NCBI GenBank assembly: GCA_032622095.1
Contig: CP136069.1
Location: 3,747,566-3,811,565, forward strand
DNA length: 64,000 bases
Direction of reading: 5' to 3'
DNA from: Siphonodentalium dalli
Lineage: Eukaryota > Mollusca > Scaphopoda > Gadilida > Siphonodentaliidae
Part shown: piece after piece, positions 3,331 through 62,516 of the stretch
How positions within the stretch are numbered: the first letter of the stretch is position 1
How the letters are laid out: every line of letters begins with the position of its first letter
Notes under the pieces: generated by a model
Told to the model about the DNA's origin: nothing
Databases searched by the model: none
Seen by the model: the letters and a program-made list of their open reading frames with translations, nothing else
Translations under genes and position numbers: made by a program

Positions 3331-3606
3331 TCAGCGGGATCACCAGCATTAGCAGGACCACTTGACCAGTGTGGTATCACGGACGTGTTAACGGTGAATT
3401 CACGGCTTCCAAGATCGAGCTCAAAATGCCGTATTCGAATTTTTAAAATCAGGACTTATACATATATATCCACGCAGGGCATTATATATACATGAATACC
3501 AGGAAATTTTGTCGAATTTAAAGCTTCGAGATTATAAATAATGAATCAAAATCGCGACATTTGGATTTATTAAAAAACAACAACGTAAAATAGCCATCAT
3601 GTGTAG

Positions 3607-37869: not shown

Positions 37870-37878
37870 ACAGGCAAC

Positions 37879-38014
37879 ATGGAATCTGGAGGAAAATACA
37901 AATGTACGTTATCGCCGGAGGTAAGGAAGAAAGCAGAGAAGGAACTGAATGAGACGGAAGAGTCAAGGCCGAAGAAAATCAAGGAATTACGCAAGCTAGT
38001 CTTAGGGAACAAGG
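37879..38014 (+). CDS. CRAL-TRIO lipid-transfer protein, coding exon 1
   Basis: This is the first coding exon of an alpha-tocopherol transfer protein/clavesin-like gene, a cytosolic family that carries hydrophobic ligands or phosphoinositides between membranes. The ATG at 37879 has A at -3 and G at +4. It encodes 45 residues: a Lys/Glu-rich helix-forming segment with LSPEVRKKAEKELNE and IKELRKLV, the start of the CRAL-TRIO N-terminal helical domain. I place the donor at G|GTATGT (38014/38015), which leaves one base. Together with CA from exon 2 this gives Ala, keeping phase 1. The donor lies inside the first unit of a 21-bp tandem array, so several near-identical donors follow downstream and the true end could be one or more units later. 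Reading through without splicing gives only repeats of LLGNKGM. Confidence 0.75.
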
Positions 38015-38262
38015 GTATGTTGTTAGGGGAAAATGGTATGTTGCTAGGGAAAGAGGGTATGCTGTTAGGGGACAAGGGTATGTTGTTAGGGAACAAGGGT
38101 GGGTTGTTAGGGAACGATGGTAGGTTGTTAGGGAACAAGGATAGCATGTTAGGGAACAATGGTATGTTGTTAGGGAACAAGGGTGGAATGTTAGGGAACA
38201 AGGGTATGTTGTTAGGGAACACGGGTAGCCTGTTAGGGAACAAGTGTGTGTTGTTATGGAAG
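38001..38262 (+). repeat. Array of a 21-bp unit starting in exon 1 (~12 copies)
   Basis: The unit resembles TTAGGGAACAAGGGTATGTTG. The first unit overlaps the last 14 coding bases of exon 1, and every unit carries a GGTATG or similar donor-like site. Some units have changed bases (ggtaggttg, gatagcatg) that would weaken the site. A shorter copy of the array is at 40095-40250. Confidence 0.85.
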
Positions 38263-38589
38263 TGTAAGCTTGTAATACTTCAATAGCATTCAATAACATG
38301 TTTTGTTTCGTTTTTCCATGCTACTGATGAAATTCAATTCGATTTTTTAAATTGGCACGGTGTTTTGGCACCGTTCAGGATTATTTTCACGTGGCCTACT
38401 GTGCACTTGACTGATTAACATGGAACGTTTCAACTTGTCCTATACCGCCGGTGGGGTGTCTCGAAAACTGCAAGACTTTTTCCAATAAAAGCCGCTCGAC
38501 TATCACGAAATTGACCTAATATAGTTTGGCCACGGTGGCAACGCTAAACACACCACGGTTAAGTAGTGGAGACTTGTTTTGTCCAGCTG

Positions 38590-38913: not shown

Positions 38914-40090
38914 AAGGCCCGCTTAATGTTCGAGTCACCGATTATTTTGTATAGTGCCTTGATGTACGGTTTTAACAACAACAATATATGCCATAAAATA
39001 TACAGACATGACAATTGGAACTTATTCCCTATTCCTTATTCCTTATTTTCAAAAATGTCGTTTTCGACCGATTAGACGGCATGGTTGGGTGGCCCGCCCC
39101 AAATACCACCTAGAAACACCCCGACCCCCCACCCATCACCCCCGGGGGGTGCCACCCCGAGGGGGTGAAAATGGGGTGTGGACCATTTTCGAGAACGGTA
39201 AGGATTTCGACCGATTTGACGGCATGGGTGGGTGGCCCGCCCCAAATACCACCTAGAAACACCCCGACCCCCCACCCATCACCCCCGGGGGGTGCCACCC
39301 CGAGGGGGTGAAAATGGGGTGTGGACCATTTTCGAGAACGGTAAGGATTTCGACCGATTTGACGGCATGGGTGGGTGGCCCGCCCCAAATACCATCTAGA
39401 AACACCCCGACCCCCCACCCATTACCCCGGGGGTGCCACCCCGAGGGGGTGAAAATGGGGTGTGGCCCATTTTCGAGAACGGTAAGGATTTCGACCGATT
39501 TGACGGCATGGGTGGGTGGCCCGCCCCAAATACCACCTAGAAACACCCGGACCCCCCACCCATCACCCCCGGGGGTGCCACCCCGAGGGGGTGAAAATGG
39601 GGTGTGGACCATTTTCGAGAACGGTAAGGATTTCGACCGATTTGACGGCATGGTTGGGTGGCCCGCCCCAAATACCACCTAGAAACACCCCGACCCCCCA
39701 CCCATCACCCCCGGGGGGTGCCACCCCGAGGGGGTGAAAATGGGGTGTGGACCATTTTCGAGAACGGTAAGGATTTCGACCGATTTGACGGCATGGGTGG
39801 GTGGCCCGCCCCAAATACCACCTAGAAAAACCCCGACCCCCCACCCATCACCCCCGGGGGGTGCCACCCCGAGGGGGTGAAAATGGGGTGTGGACCATTT
39901 TCGAGAACGGTAAGGATTTCGACCGATTTGACGGCATGGGTGGGTGGCCCGCCCCAAATACCATCTAGAAACACCCCGACCCCCCACCCATCACCCCGGG
40001 GGGTGCCACCCCGAGGGGGTGAAAATGGGGTGTGGACCATTTTCGAGAACGGTAAGGATTTTTGGCTCCCATAATGCAACAGAATTCAAA
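38914..40090 (+). mobile_element. Family D element with a different internal array
   Basis: The D left end (aaaggcccgcttaatgttcg) and first interior part are present to about 39040. A GC-rich 142-bp array then fills the element, and the D text resumes for only about 25 bp (cccataatgcaacagaattc) before it stops at the copied exon 1 array. The right end is missing. Confidence 0.7.
39056..40062 (+). repeat. GC-rich array of a ~142-bp unit (7 copies)
   Basis: The phrase gtaaggatttcgaccgattt recurs at 141-143 bp steps (39198, 39341, 39482, 39624, 39767, 39910, and partly 40052). Each unit contains ggtggcccgccccaaatacc and ccccgagggggtgaaaatgg. It is strikingly GC-rich within AT-rich surroundings, and it produces overlapping open frames on both strands that I do not believe are genes. 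Confidence 0.9.
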
Positions 40091-40094
40091 CTAA

Positions 40095-40250
40095 AGTCTT
40101 AGGGAACAAGGGTATGTTGTTAGGGAAAATGGTATGTTGCTAGGAAAAGAGGGTAGGTTGTTAGGGAACAATGGTAGGTTGTTAGAGAACAAGGATAGCC
40201 TGCTAGGGAACAAGGGTGGAATGTTAGGGAACAAGGGTATGATGTAAGAA
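40095..40250 (+). pseudogene. Duplicated exon 1 end plus donor array
   Basis: It starts with agtcttagggaacaaggg, identical to the last coding bases of exon 1 and its donor, and continues through eight or so 21-bp units in nearly the same order of variants as 38001-38200. The upstream part of exon 1 is absent, so it cannot encode the start of the protein. Confidence 0.7.
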
Positions 40251-40447
40251 GAATATATCATATATGGATGAATCCGTGTCCCATTTCACATAGCATAACA
40301 CATTTCTAAACAGGTGCATGTGCTTAGCTATGCTTCTCCGATATTCCACAAGCTGGTGCAACCGAAATGTCATCGGCAGTGGTTGCATAAGTTGTAACAA
40401 CATAATACCCAGAATGCAACAGCTCGCGGTAATACTTTCATGCAGTA

Positions 40448-40853
40448 CCCTGTGCCAATGCATTCTCTTATATATGCGAGTCGACCATAGGTCGCCTCGC
40501 ATATATAAGAGAATGCATTGGCCTAACAATTTTTTATCTTTTTTTTTTTAATAACAATTTTTAGGACAGAAAATAAAAAACATCCAGAGTGTCAATAACC
40601 CTGCAGGGAGCCCCAAACATATAGAATCATATAGAAGAGTGTCGTCTGCTGATGTTTGTCTGGGGCTCTGTATGGGTGAAATTATAAACTTGTTAAAGAA
40701 TATAAGAAAAAGTTATTAAAATTGTAAAAAATTGTAAAAAATAATAACAAATGCAGACAAATGATAAAAAATTGTTAGGCCAATGAATTCTCTTATATAT
40801 GCGAGGCGACCTATGGTCGACTCGCATATATAAGAGAATGCATTGGCACAGGG
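40448..40853. mobile_element. Composite A-B-A' element
   Basis: A hairpin, spacer, inverted B hairpin (about 40600-40680), longer spacer and a facing A hairpin. TA flanks both ends (cagtaccctg and cagggtatta). The second A hairpin has a changed arm (ccaatgaattctc). Confidence 0.85.
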
Positions 40854-40884
40854 TATTAAACGAATGCCAATTGGTAAAAAAAAT

Positions 40885-41350
40885 GTTTTACTATAGTCAA
40901 ATGTAGCTACAATAGCTACATATAGCTATTATTTCGCGCTCCGCGTGCATACTGTGTCGCTGTTTCTTGGTATACAGTGGACGATGGGGGTTCTATTTAT
41001 AGAATTACAATAGCTACATATAGCTATTATTTCGCGCTCCGCGTGCATACTGTGTCGCCGTTTTTTGGTATACAGTGGGCGATGGGGGCTCTATTTATAG
41101 AATGGCAATTATTGGGACACATTAAAAGTTGTAGTGCGACCCCGATCCGAGCCTGGTGTAGTTGGGAATTTCAATTTAGTTTATTGGCGTTAACATTATT
41201 ATGTCGATAATGTCGATTTTTGGTTTGTGGTAAGATATGCCAATTACAAATAACAGAAATGAAAAAGATTCTATAATTACAATCATGGGTATATAATATA
41301 TGATCTTGAGCGCGTTACCATTTCTGACTATGGTTTTCTTGTAGCTATTA
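40885..41350 (+). repeat. Dispersed repeat E (copy 2) with internal tandem duplication
   Basis: An initial unit (caatagctacatatagctat to gatgggggttctatttatag) is repeated twice at about 40910-41100. The E body matching 28636-28855 follows (attaaaagttgtagtgcgac), and then gagcgcgttaccatttctga, the text that forms the 75-bp array at 62575. Confidence 0.75.
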
Positions 41351-41365
41351 TTGGGAGTTACCAGA

Positions 41366-41432
41366 CCTGTTGATATTTTATCTGATGCTGAGTTATTATA
41401 AGATGAAGGCCGCTACTCGTATTCATTTAATA
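41366..41432 (+). pseudogene. Shard of exon 2 (first half)
   Basis: The text cctgttgatattttatct, which ends the real intron 1, is joined directly to gatgctgagttattataaga and tgaaggccgctactcg from the middle of exon 2. The acceptor and the first 80 or so coding bases are missing. The shard ends at attcatttaata, where an A-B-A' element starts. It cannot be spliced as a normal exon. Confidence 0.8.
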
Positions 41433-41855
41433 CCCTGTGCCAATGCATTCTCTTATATATGCGAGTCGACCATATGTCGCCTCGCATATATAAGAGAATG
41501 CATTGGCCTAACAATTTGTTATCATTTGTTATTATTTTTTACAATTTTTTACAATTTTAATAATTTTTTCTTATATTCTTTAACAATTTTATAATTTCAC
41601 CCATACAGAGCCCCAGACAAACATCAGCAGACGACACTCTTATATATATATGCTTCTATATATGTTTGGGGCTCCCTGCAGGGTTATTGACACTCTGGAT
41701 GTTTTTTTATTTTATGTTCTAAAAATTGTTAAAGAATGTAAGACAAATTTATATAAAAAAAAATGAAAAACAATTGTTAGGCCAATGCATTCTCTTATAT
41801 ATGCGATGCGACCTATGGTCGACTCGCATATATAAGAGAATGCATTGGCACAGGG
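41433..41855. mobile_element. Composite A-B-A' element inside a duplicated exon 2
   Basis: A hairpin, spacer, B hairpin (about 41600-41685), spacer and facing A hairpin, with TA at both edges. It lies between the two halves of the exon 2 duplicate at 41366-41432 and 41926-41985. The 45 bp to its right (tatgcagtctctccgaatac) recur, inverted, beside the relative at 59171. Confidence 0.8.
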
Positions 41856-41925
41856 TATACTAGTAGTATGCAGTCTCTCCGAATACCTATTGAGGTGATA
41901 TAGTCTTACATCACAAGCAGGAGTA

Positions 41926-41985
41926 TTAGCATGCGGCCGAACACAGTTAAGATGGTTTTCGAGGATATCTGCCGCCTTAGATTCT
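41926..41985 (+). pseudogene. Shard of exon 2 (second half)
   Basis: The sequence agcatgcggccgaacacagt, followed by taagatggttttcgaggata and tctgccgccttagattct, matches the second half of exon 2 with a deletion of about seven bases and several changes. It then runs into repeat E text (gagcgcgttaccaattctga). Confidence 0.8.
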
Positions 41986-42015
41986 TGAGCGCGTTACCAA
42001 TTCTGACTATGGTTT

Positions 42016-42118
42016 TCTTGTAGCTATTATTGGGAATAACCAGACCTGTTGATATTTTATCTACCAACTGATGCTGAATTATTATAAGATGAAGGCCGCT
42101 ACTCGTATTCATTTAATA
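42016..42118 (+). pseudogene. Second shard of exon 2 (first half)
   Basis: This is nearly the same sequence as 41340-41432: ttgggaataaccagacctgt, then ttatctaccaactgatgctg and aattattataagatgaaggc, ending at the same attcatttaata junction with an A element. The block including the A element junction was therefore duplicated after the A insertion. Confidence 0.75.
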
Positions 42119-42456
42119 CCCTGTGCCAATGCATTCCATTATATATGCGAGTGGACCATATGTCGTCTCGCATATATAAGAGAATGCATTGGCCTAACAA
42201 TTTTTTATCAATTTGTTTTTTTATAAATTTGTCTTACATTCTTTAACAATTTTTAGGACATAAAATAAAAAACATCCAGAGTGTCAATAACCCTACAGGG
42301 AGCCCCAGACATATATATAAGCATATAGAAGAGTGTCGTCTGCTGATGTTTGTCTGGGGCTCTGTATGGGTGAAATTATAAAATTGTTAAAGAATATAAG
42401 AAAAAATTATTAAATTGTAAAAAATTGTAAAAAATAATTACAAATGATAAAAAATT
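42119..42456. mobile_element. Composite A-B element, second A hairpin missing
   Basis: A hairpin with worn centre (gagtggaccatatgtcgtc), spacer, inverted B hairpin (42295-42370) and spacer to aaaaattg. The facing A hairpin is lost. Its right edge lies only about 40 bp before the real exon 2. Confidence 0.8.
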
Positions 42457-42496: not shown

Positions 42497-42730
42497 CATT
42501 GGAAACGCGAACAGACGACGTCTTTCTCTTACGATTTTTAAGAGCGCGAAAATTTGAAACACAACATGCCTACGAAATGATGCTGAATTATTATAGAATG
42601 AAGGCCGCCACTCCAAATATATTCGGGAACATGCGGCCGAACACCGTTAAGATGGTTTTCGAGGACGGGGTATCTGCTGCCTTAGATTCTAGAGACAGGA
42701 ACGGATCCAGTGTAGCCGTGCTTCGAATGG
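42497..42730 (+). CDS. CRAL-TRIO lipid-transfer protein, coding exon 2
   Basis: It follows the acceptor tatcttttcag and encodes 77 whole codons after a split Ala. The sequence LETRTDDVFLLRFLRARKFE carries the LRFLRARKF signature of the CRAL-TRIO N-terminal domain (residues about 57-65). It is followed by the AYEMMLNYYRMK helix and, near the end, DSRDRNGSSVAVLRM, the first strand of the lipid-binding domain as in tocopherol transfer protein. The donor G|GTATGA leaves one base that joins exon 3 to make Gly of GKWD. A CT-rich microsatellite starts about 20 bp after the donor. Three shards of this exon lie upstream in intron 1. Confidence 0.9.
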
Positions 42731-42751: not shown

Positions 42752-42875
42752 TCTCTCAATCTCAATCTCAATCTCTATTTATCAATATCTCTCTCTCAAT
42801 CTCTATTTATCAATATCTCTCTCTCTCTCTCAATCTCTCTCTCAATATATATATCTCCCTCTCTCTCTCTCCAGA
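42752..42875 (+). repeat. (TC/TCAA)n microsatellite
   Basis: Runs of ctctctcaatctcaatctc with atttatcaatat interruptions follow exon 2's donor almost directly. It produces a Ser/Leu-rich open frame of no meaning. Confidence 0.85.
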
Positions 42876-56378: not shown

Positions 56379-56455
56379 GTAAATGGGACACGGGACGATA
56401 CGGAATGGAAACATTAACGAAAGCTAATGTCCTCACATTCCACAAACTTATCGAG
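56379..56455 (+). CDS. CRAL-TRIO lipid-transfer protein, coding exon 3
   Basis: GT completes the codon begun in exon 2, so the first residues are GKWD, the conserved turn of the CRAL-TRIO domain (GKWDPKKY in clavesins and similar proteins). It continues as TGRYGMETLTKANVLTFHKL and IE, the helix that follows. The exon ends at GAG|GTACGT in phase 0, matching exon 4. It is only 77 bp and would be missed by a length-based search. A 70-bp tandem array begins within 50 bp of the donor. Confidence 0.88.
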
Positions 56456-58656: not shown

Positions 58657-58773
58657 GATGAAGCAGCGCAAGTGAATGGCCTCGTTCTGATCCTAGACAT
58701 GAAGAACATGGGGTGGCATCATGGAATGCACTTGAATCCATTTGTCGCACGGAATATCGCAGCAATTTATCAG
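58657..58773 (+). CDS. CRAL-TRIO lipid-transfer protein, coding exon 4
   Basis: The 39 codons begin DEAAQVNGLVLILDMKNMGW, the QVNG..LI.D strand that is a hallmark of the CRAL-TRIO lipid-binding fold, and continue HHGMHLNPFVARNIAAIYQ, the helix that lines the ligand pocket. Both introns are phase 0. The acceptor is ttttcacag and the donor CAG|GTAATA. The order and spacing match tocopherol transfer protein and clavesin. A worn family B hairpin begins 20 bp after the donor. Confidence 0.92.
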
Positions 58774-59987: not shown

Positions 59988-60143
59988 TAACTTAGGCTGA
60001 ATAGGTCATTGTCGCATGGTTTCTGTCAAAAAGACACCCAGGATCTCTTAAACTGTCAAAAAGACACCCAGGATCTCAAAGTCTCACCAAACAACGGGAA
60101 TTTTGTTTAGTCATCTGCTATTAATATTGGTCCAACTATCAAT

Positions 60144-61670
60144 GATGCGGAATTGCGCTGTCAGTCAGACTCAGACGGTATCCCAAACTCCATCCTAAAG
60201 AAGTACGCAAAACAACTGGCACCTGCCTTCAGGCTCATATTCCAACTATCATTAGACACAGGCACATTGCCAAGGGACTGGCGCAGCGCCAACATAGCCT
60301 CAGTCTACAAAAAAGGAGATCGACATCAAGCGGAAAACTATCGTCCTGTGTCCCTAACATCAGTACCGTGCAAGCTACTAGAACACCTCATATGCCGCCA
60401 TATCCATGAACATCTGGAGAAGCACAACATACTAACAAAGCTCAACCATGGCTTTAGAAGGGGATATTCCTGCGAAACACAACTAGCAGTGACAACACAA
60501 GACATCCTACAATCATTTGACAACAAGAAGCAGATCGACGTGGCCATCCTTGATTTCTCCAAAGCTTTCGACACTGTGCCACACGACAGCCTATTGACCA
60601 AACTAAATCACTACGGTATCACAGGCCCGGTCAACAGATGGCTAGCATCCTTTCTGAAAGAAAGAAAGATGAGAGTTGCACTCGAGGGATACTACTCAGA
60701 AGAAGTTGACGTGTTATCAGGAGTACCACAGGGAGCAGTATTGGGACCGCTGCTCTTTCTCTGTCACATAAATGACCTACCGGACACAGTAACATCACAA
60801 GTCCGCCTATTCGCAGATGACTGCCTCCTGTACCGCCAGATAAACACCTACAAAGACCACGAAATATTGCAACAAGACCTACGCAAACTGGAACAATGGG
60901 CCACCACATGGGGGATGCGCTTTAATCCAACTAAGTGCTACATTATGAGCCTAAAGCAGAAGACACAACGATTTTACCAACTGGCAGGGCAGATACTCCA
61001 AGAAGTCACAAACAACCCGTACCTTGGCGTCCAATTCTCCAATGACATGCAGTGGCATCATCACATCGAGTCCACCACGAAGAAGGCAAACTCCACCCTC
61101 GGCTTCCTTCGGCGTAATCTCAGGTACTGCCAAATGGATCTTAGAAAAACGGCATACATAGCATTAGTCCGCCCTCAGCTAGAGTATGCAGCAACAATCT
61201 TGGATCCTCACTATGAAAAGGACAAGACAAAGCTGGAGAAGGTGCAACGCAAAGGAGCAAGATTTATAAAACAGGACTACCGAACGAGAGAGAAAGGCTG
61301 TGTAACATCAATGCTAAGTGAACTTCAACTACCATCCCTAGAAGCAAGAAGAAAGGAACAGAGACTGACACTATTTTACAAAGTGGTAAAGGGATCAGCC
61401 CCGGGTATCAACTCCGAACACTACCTAAGAAACTACCGCCCAAAGAGGAAAAAGAAACCCACAAAATTCAAGGACTTTGTTAGTGACAACATCGTGGAGA
61501 AACTAACCACAAATAACGAAAGTGCCTACGAACCAATTCATACAAACACAGACCAATACAGATATTCCTTCTTCCCGAGGACTGTACTTGACTGGAACAA
61601 ACTGGACAACAGCACAGTCAATGCCGCCGACCTAGAAACATTCAAGGCGGCTCTGGGAGAACAAAAATAG
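60144..61670 (+). CDS. Non-LTR reverse transcriptase (Jockey/CR1-like group), N-terminally truncated
   Basis: The open frame runs without a stop for just over 500 codons but has no ATG at its beginning. Numbering from TTG at 60153, NYRPVSLTS is at 62-70, motif A LDFSKAFD at 133-140, motif B SGVPQGAVLGP at 189-199 and the catalytic motif C FADD at 220-223; FNPTKC and YLGVQFS (motifs D and E) follow. The C-terminal part (LEKVQRKGARF, SFFPRTVLDWNKLDN) matches the region behind the polymerase in Jockey/CR1-like LINEs. The N-terminal endonuclease is missing. The enzyme would copy its own RNA at a nick during insertion, but without endonuclease and promoter this copy is dead. The intact frame suggests a recent insertion. 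It lies in intron 4, in the same direction as the host gene. Confidence 0.92.
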   Translation, partial: DAELRCQSDSDGIPNSILKKYAKQLAPAFRLIFQLSLDTGTLPRDWRSANIASVYKKGDRHQAENYRPVSLTSVPCKLLEHLICRHIHEHLEKHNILTKLNHGFRRGYSCETQLAVTTQDILQSFDNKKQIDVAILDFSKAFDTVPHDSLLTKLNHYGITGPVNRWLASFLKERKMRVALEGYYSEEVDVLSGVPQGAVLGPLLFLCHINDLPDTVTSQVRLFADDCLLYRQINTYKDHEILQQDLRKLEQWATTWGMRFNPTKCYIMSLKQKTQRFYQLAGQILQEVTNNPYLGVQFSNDMQWHHHIESTTKKANSTLGFLRRNLRYCQMDLRKTAYIALVRPQLEYAATILDPHYEKDKTKLEKVQRKGARFIKQDYRTREKGCVTSMLSELQLPSLEARRKEQRLTLFYKVVKGSAPGINSEHYLRNYRPKRKKKPTKFKDFVSDNIVEKLTTNNESAYEPIHTNTDQYRYSFFPRTVLDWNKLDNSTVNAADLETFKAALGEQK

Positions 61671-62405: not shown

Positions 62406-62516
62406 GGATGTTTTCCGGCAAGATTCAAAGCCTACCATGCAGTATTCGAACCAATTTTCTTTGATGTCATGTTAGGAATCATGAAGGTTTTCATGAAACA
62501 GAAGATGATCGATCGA
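62406..62516 (+). CDS. CRAL-TRIO lipid-transfer protein, coding exon 5
   Basis: After acceptor cacttatttttcag the 37 codons read GCFPARFKAYHAVFEPIFFD, then VMLGIMKVFMKQKMIDR, corresponding to the FP.R.. ...N.P..F...... ..PFL..K...R segment of the lipid-binding domain. GCFPARF parallels DSFPARF of clavesins. A Cys sits where Ser or Asp is usual, and His-Ala-Val-Phe-Glu-Pro replaces the usual N-E/Q-P. The donor CGA|GTAAGT is phase 0. The remaining part of the domain, including the usual HGN motif and the C-terminus, must lie to the right of this window. Confidence 0.9.

Follow-up and report, generated by a model that had tools for sequence, protein, structure and literature searches.

A minisatellite that copies a splice donor has been described in human ABCA7, where an intron-18 VNTR with a 25-bp unit includes the exon-18 donor and one unit is retained in 2 ± 1% of transcripts (PMC5954066). 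The transcripts that retain a unit are reported there to be targets of nonsense-mediated decay (PMC5954066). The array described below resembles this case in that a minisatellite begins at an exon's donor and repeats that donor (PMC5954066). We do not count the miR-137 VNTR as a precedent, since its new donors are reported to sit in the pre-miRNA. Among the open-licence PMC papers listed in our searches we found no case of a donor array that preserves the reading frame.

A 21-bp array across an exon border of a CRAL-TRIO gene

The window analysed here is a stretch of 64,000 nucleotides from the scaphopod Siphonodentalium dalli (CP136069.1, positions 3,747,566 to 3,811,565), located in contig C9 of a nine-contig, 2.23-Gb assembly. 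Tandem Repeats Finder placed an array at 38002-38261 on the + strand (period 21, 12.4 copies, 79% matches, 0% indels, consensus TTAGGGAACAAGGGTATGTTG), comprising 12 units and a partial 13th. The array straddles the border between the first coding exon and intron 1 of a seven-exon CRAL-TRIO gene, and its unit, TTAGGGAACAAGG|GTATGTTG, consists of exactly the last 13 exon bases and the first 8 intron bases. It includes the donor of the exon and repeats that donor, a feature shared with donor-containing VNTRs of the ABCA7 kind. An earlier sequence-only reading had proposed an array beginning in the last codons of exon 1, and this is borne out, as the repeat starts at 38002 and exon 1 ends at 38014. 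The same reading had given the unit the donor context AAGG|GTATGT. The GT is kept in 11 of the 12 units, unit 7 reading AT (38141..38142, +), but the exact context occurs in only three (units 1, 4 and 10).

Adjacent units match at 79%, units two or four apart at 85%, and units three, five and six apart at 80%, 78% and 82%; the sequence hints that the array may have grown by 42-bp pairs. The array RNA is predicted to fold somewhat more stably than shuffled sequences (z = −2.22, 1 of 100 shuffles as good), a result that repeats may give trivially.

The gene that carries the array is apparently intact and working, judged from its sequence, and of the kind of CRALBP and alpha-tocopherol transfer protein (carriers of retinal and vitamin E). 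Ended by donor 1, the first coding exon spans 37870..38014 (+, 145 nt) with its ATG at 37879 and codes for MESGGKYKCTLSPEVRKKAEKELNETEESRPKKIKELRKLVLGNK plus one base. Coding exon 2 lies at 42497..42730 (+), follows the phase-1 acceptor ttttcag|CATTGG and encodes the CRAL_TRIO_N domain; exons 3, 4 and 5 lie at 56379..56455, 58657..58773 and 62406..62516 (all +), and the last two, exons 6 and 7, are found just past the end of the window, in L031 (at 3482-3583 and from 4933, respectively). The seven exons have matching phases and GT/AG intron borders, and together encode a predicted protein of 307 residues. Both domains of CRAL-TRIO lipid carriers of the CRALBP/TTPA kind exceed their Pfam cut-offs in this protein (PF00650 CRAL_TRIO, E = 2.3e-26, 92.9 bits, cut-off 22.6; PF03765 CRAL_TRIO_N, E = 2.8e-8, 34.3 bits, cut-off 23). 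The best PDB match is CRALBP (E = 2.4e-45) and the next protein is alpha-tocopherol transfer protein (E = 1.4e-38).

Upstream of the first coding exon there is an acceptor-like tttaattttcag|acaggcaacATG, conserved in the paralog, and the exon is therefore probably not the first of the transcript. The label "exon 1" in the sequence-only reading is thus right for the coding sequence and probably wrong for the transcript. We also observed a 519-codon open frame at 60111-61670 whose translation reads like the reverse transcriptase of a non-LTR element.

A single-copy counterpart and the origin of the array

Searching the genome with the exon-1 peptide brought up 8 more matches, and searching it with exon 2 brought up 10. 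Eight of these 10 have a partner among the exon-1 matches; the remaining two are a distant relative (33% identity) and a match at chance level (E = 9.9). The exon-1 protein is 84% identical to that of the paralog. Over exons 1 and 2, comparison with the closest paralog, on contig C2, gave a dN of 0.119 and a dS of 0.493, which makes constraint on the gene probable. The matching phases of the seven exons and a dN well below dS give no support to a pseudogene.

All nine family members compared end exon 1 in NK plus one base. The next bases at this border are G|GT in eight of the nine, the window gene included, and T|GT in one (L045), where the junction would code Ser in place of Ala. No array crosses the exon-1 donor in any of the eight other family members examined in the genome; three of these (L047-L049) have a run of G starting a few bases inside the intron. 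The border reads TTTTAGGGAATAAGG|GTATATGTTGTTCG in the C2 paralog and CTTAGGGAACAAGG|GTATGTTGTTAGGG in the window, and the array unit corresponds to the paralog's exon-1 border, present there in one copy, with differences of one base and a 2-base gap.

A DNA search found the unit at 2 places. In a 2.23-Gb scan the exact 17-base core TTAGGGAANAAGGGTAT occurred at no fewer than 5 places, at least once at the exon-1 donor of the paralog and twice in each of two arrays of the window intron, with the caveat that such whole-genome counts may be lower bounds for repeats; the reversed control of this core had 0 matches in the same scan. Since exact core matches were found only at the paralog donor and in the two arrays, and the eight other genes lack the array, it was made in place from the border. 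The firmest result of this analysis, as read from these sequence comparisons, is that the junction is old and the array is new, formed where it stands by repeated tandem copying of a 21-bp border stretch. The added units bring their own donor in the same phase.

Two other sources for the repeat were considered. A dispersed satellite or mobile repeat does not fit, as the exact core matches listed all lie in the intron's two arrays or at the paralog donor. A telomere-derived repeat (the unit holds TTAGGG) was rejected for the same restricted set of exact core matches, and because TTAGGG is also present in the paralog exon. The alignment of the array's right flank with the intron of the paralog scored like shuffled sequence (the end-anchored score was attained by 124 of 500 shuffles; the local score was 15.0, and 60 shuffles averaged 15.4), and therefore does not fix where the original insertion ended on the right.

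A second array in the same intron, about 2.1 kb downstream (40099..40239, +, 6.8 units), is 86% identical to the first over 152 bp, and its frame is broken by a 1-bp deletion. Read by eye, its order of units is that of array 1 without units 4, 5 and 8; a MAFFT alignment instead sets it against the first units of array 1, without gaps at 4, 5 and 8. On the by-eye reading, made in one assembly, the number of units has not stayed constant over time. Fragments of exon 2 are duplicated within intron 1, at 41375..41418 (+), 41930-41989 and 42061-42104 (families D9, D13 and D14), which makes it probable that part of the stretch from the array to exon 2 was once duplicated and then decayed. Near-identical intron-1 stretches (41304-41383 and 41983-42062, 96%) lead into the damaged exon-2 pieces at 41375-41418 and 42061-42104.

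Several other repeats were observed in the gene. Seven GC-rich 143-bp tandem units occupy 39062-40061, between the two 21-bp arrays, and with these units seven moderately scoring donor-like ACGGTAAGG sites are repeated as well. A palindromic element (CCAATGCATTCTCTTATATATGCGAG...CTCGCATATATAAGAGAATGCATTGG), which may be a small mobile element with inverted repeats, occurs five times in intron 1 (40434-42202) and, judging by translations, elsewhere in the window. Introns 2, 3 and 5 contain tandem arrays at 42752, 56494 and 62570, beginning 22-54 bp past the donor; introns 4 and 6 do not.

Donor strength, reading frame and donor choice

We scored donors with a matrix built from 46 donors of the same genome (27 from CCT chaperonin genes, 8 from paralog exon 1, 9 from family exon 2 and 2 from the window gene), the chaperonin donors having been chosen by eye from 31 fetched stretches, of which 4 were dropped. 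Donor 1, the ancestral site (AGG|GTATGT, 38015..38022, +), is at the 93rd percentile of the 46. Donors 2-6 (38036..38127, +; GT at 38036, 38057, 38078, 38099 and 38120) are at percentiles 80, 78, 93, 54 and 65, donors 8-10 (38162..38211, +; GT at 38162, 38183 and 38204) at percentiles 80, 2 (weak) and 93, and donors 11 and 12 (38225..38253, +; GT at 38225 and 38246) at the 4th percentile by this matrix. Eight of the 12 units exceed the reference median, and at least some 96% of the reference donors outscore each of units 7, 9, 11 and 12. The dozen near-copies of the donor that had been anticipated exist as 12 units, eight of them good, but unit 7 lacks the GT and units 9, 11 and 12 are weak. 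Donor 10 has the same nine bases as donor 1. Units 1, 4 and 10 (score 10.06) are joint best, with one site of array 2, among the 264 GT sites of the exon and intron 1.

The two measures of strength conflict. By U1 pairing energy, units 5, 6 and 11 (−9.3, −8.8 and −7.0 kcal/mol) stand above unit 1 (−6.2 kcal/mol), whereas the matrix puts units 1, 4 and 10 first. The U1 5′ end has the standard sequence ATACTTACCTG in 8/8 loci read, of 42 U1 matches listed. A donor-like GAG|GTAAGG at 37921, inside the first coding exon, beats every unit in pairing (score 8.62, U1 −10.1); it is not present in the C2 paralog and by count is out of phase with exon 2. A row of 17 U1 snRNA genes, mostly about 2.15 kb apart, was seen on contig C1 (103842444-103879156).

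The frame from the ATG at 37879 is open through all array units, and the first in-frame stop past the array lies at 38284..38286 (+), ending the ORF at 38286. At donor 1 the exon end AAG G|GT joins the exon 2 start tttcag|CA TTG, and G+CA codes for Ala; the open frame that contains exon 2 matches CRAL_TRIO_N (E = 5.5e-8). An exon ended at any of the 12 units would stay in open frame with exon 2, so that each later donor would add 7 residues; the earlier proposal that later donors add LGNKGML-type heptads without a frame shift agrees with this, all 12 exon ends being in phase. In the alignment with the predicted protein, CRALBP carries 8+3 extra residues just past the point of the exon-1 junction, so extra residues near the insert point do occur in a relative. 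We infer that the insert site is a loop in which heptads may be tolerated.

We found no sign of constraint at the protein level, as 3 of the 28 changes from the consensus unit are synonymous, against an expectation of 12 in 59 non-stop single changes, and the frame stayed open in 29% of arrays in a neutral simulation with 28 substitutions. Neither the codon-position analysis nor this simulation supports selection for a coding array.

These figures, with 25 of the 28 changes non-synonymous, also speak for a silent intronic minisatellite, in which the first donor alone would be meaningfully used and units 2-12 would drift freely, always spliced away with the intron. The junction after NK common to the nine family members fits this reading, as do the arrays in three of the five other introns examined, which show that an array close to a donor is nothing unusual here; the upstream donor may also be favoured by the 12 UAGGG motifs. 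The strength of the copies speaks the other way, since seven later donors are above the reference median, two of them sharing donor 1's nine bases, and a comparable second donor in ABCA7 is reportedly used at about 2%. We regard such a silent array as somewhat unlikely.

The junction shared by the family, taken with the low use of the second donor reported for ABCA7, suggests that the first donor remains the main one. A dominant late donor, for example that of unit 10, would instead make the array constitutively coding, with an invariant insert of LGNKGML-like heptads that could reach some 63 residues. Donor 10 scores the same as donor 1, SRSF1 is reportedly able to favour the donor closest to the acceptor, and array 1 has 0% indels by Tandem Repeats Finder against 1% in the frame-broken array 2. 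The lack of any sign of constraint on the heptad and the absence of the array from eight paralogs argue against such an insert, as does the exon read through the array, which matched no CRAL-TRIO model and whose sole Pfam match was a beta-roll below the cut-off (E = 0.083). We consider this very unlikely. Slimmer still is the chance that the donor of one unit is joined to an acceptor-like AG of a later unit (TTAG or CTAG in each), removing a short intron inside the array. The order within the unit, G|GTATGTTGTTAG|GG, would permit this, and introns can reportedly arise from tandem duplications (PMC4974935), but the unit has no clear pyrimidine tract, and the longest such intron would by arithmetic be 222 nt and most far shorter.

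All 12 units contain UAGGG, and intron 1 has no copy beyond the two arrays; the longer TAGGGA is found 10 times. UAGGG is reported to be the core of UAGGGA/U, the motif of mammalian hnRNP A1. An excess of hnRNP A1 in mammals is reported to shift splicing to the distal donor, here the upstream one, and an excess of SRSF1 to the proximal donor. If the animal's hnRNP A1 homologue binds UAGGG, donor choice should be pushed back towards the upstream donor, and the rung used would depend on how hnRNP A-type and SR proteins are balanced. As the motif is native to the exon and present in the paralog too, its presence does not have to reflect adaptation.

Many strong in-phase sites and the ABCA7 precedent argue against silence; the ancestral first donor, the 25 of 28 non-synonymous changes and the 29% of neutral arrays with an open frame argue against a large role. 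Weighing both sides together with a UAGGG in every unit, we expect most splicing to use donor 1, beside a minor and perhaps regulated ladder. For the array that arose in place, we hold it to be rather probable that the ancestral donor 1 yields most of the mRNA and the 307-residue protein, and that some of the seven good later donors are used at a low or regulated level. Their use would give an in-frame ladder of proteins, lengthened in steps of 7 residues where a relative likewise carries additional ones, and the hnRNP A/SR balance would choose the rung. We also considered a more far-reaching version, a heritable and tunable length dial in which the number of units caps the linker, hnRNP A-type and SR proteins acting on UAGGG pick the donor and the 21-bp period keeps the frame. 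If true, it would provide graded lipid-carrier proteins differing among tissues and individuals, but we think it unlikely.

Comparison with known systems

With many near-identical, evenly spaced, in-phase donors at one exon end, the locus could serve as a clean natural test of donor choice, for which the one-copy state kept in the paralog is the reference. Use of the rungs would show the relative weight of position, donor strength and UAGGG motifs. The locus also suggests that a minisatellite on an exon border may be harmless, perhaps useful, if its period is a multiple of three, the 25-bp ABCA7 unit being one that shifts the frame.

By domain content the window gene is a full-length CRAL-TRIO member like CRALBP (RLBP1) and alpha-tocopherol transfer protein; it differs from the eight close members examined in the genome, all of which lack a repeat across the exon-1 donor. 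Tandem splice donors (GYNGYN and similar; PMC1779574, PMC2423196) are alike in that neighbouring donors are reported to yield slightly different protein lengths. Those sites are described as close together, whereas here eight good donors stand at 21-bp multiples over 189 bp. In the reported gain of introns by tandem duplication, a duplication across an exon-intron border likewise copies the splice signals (PMC4974935). One duplication there makes a new intron, whereas here about a dozen donor copies lie at the end of an existing exon.

As described, the ABCA7 unit is 25 bp long, its first two bases are the GT of the donor, making the repeat intronic, and an extra unit shifts the frame (PMC5954066). 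The window unit is 21 bp long and straddles the border (13 exon bases and 8 intron bases), keeping the frame with no stop. Donor use is measured in ABCA7; in the window array it is predicted from sequence. It is because the unit straddles the border with a period of 21 that all outcomes are in frame. A donor turned minisatellite was already known from ABCA7; what differs here is the border-straddling unit, the period of 21 and the preserved single-copy counterpart.
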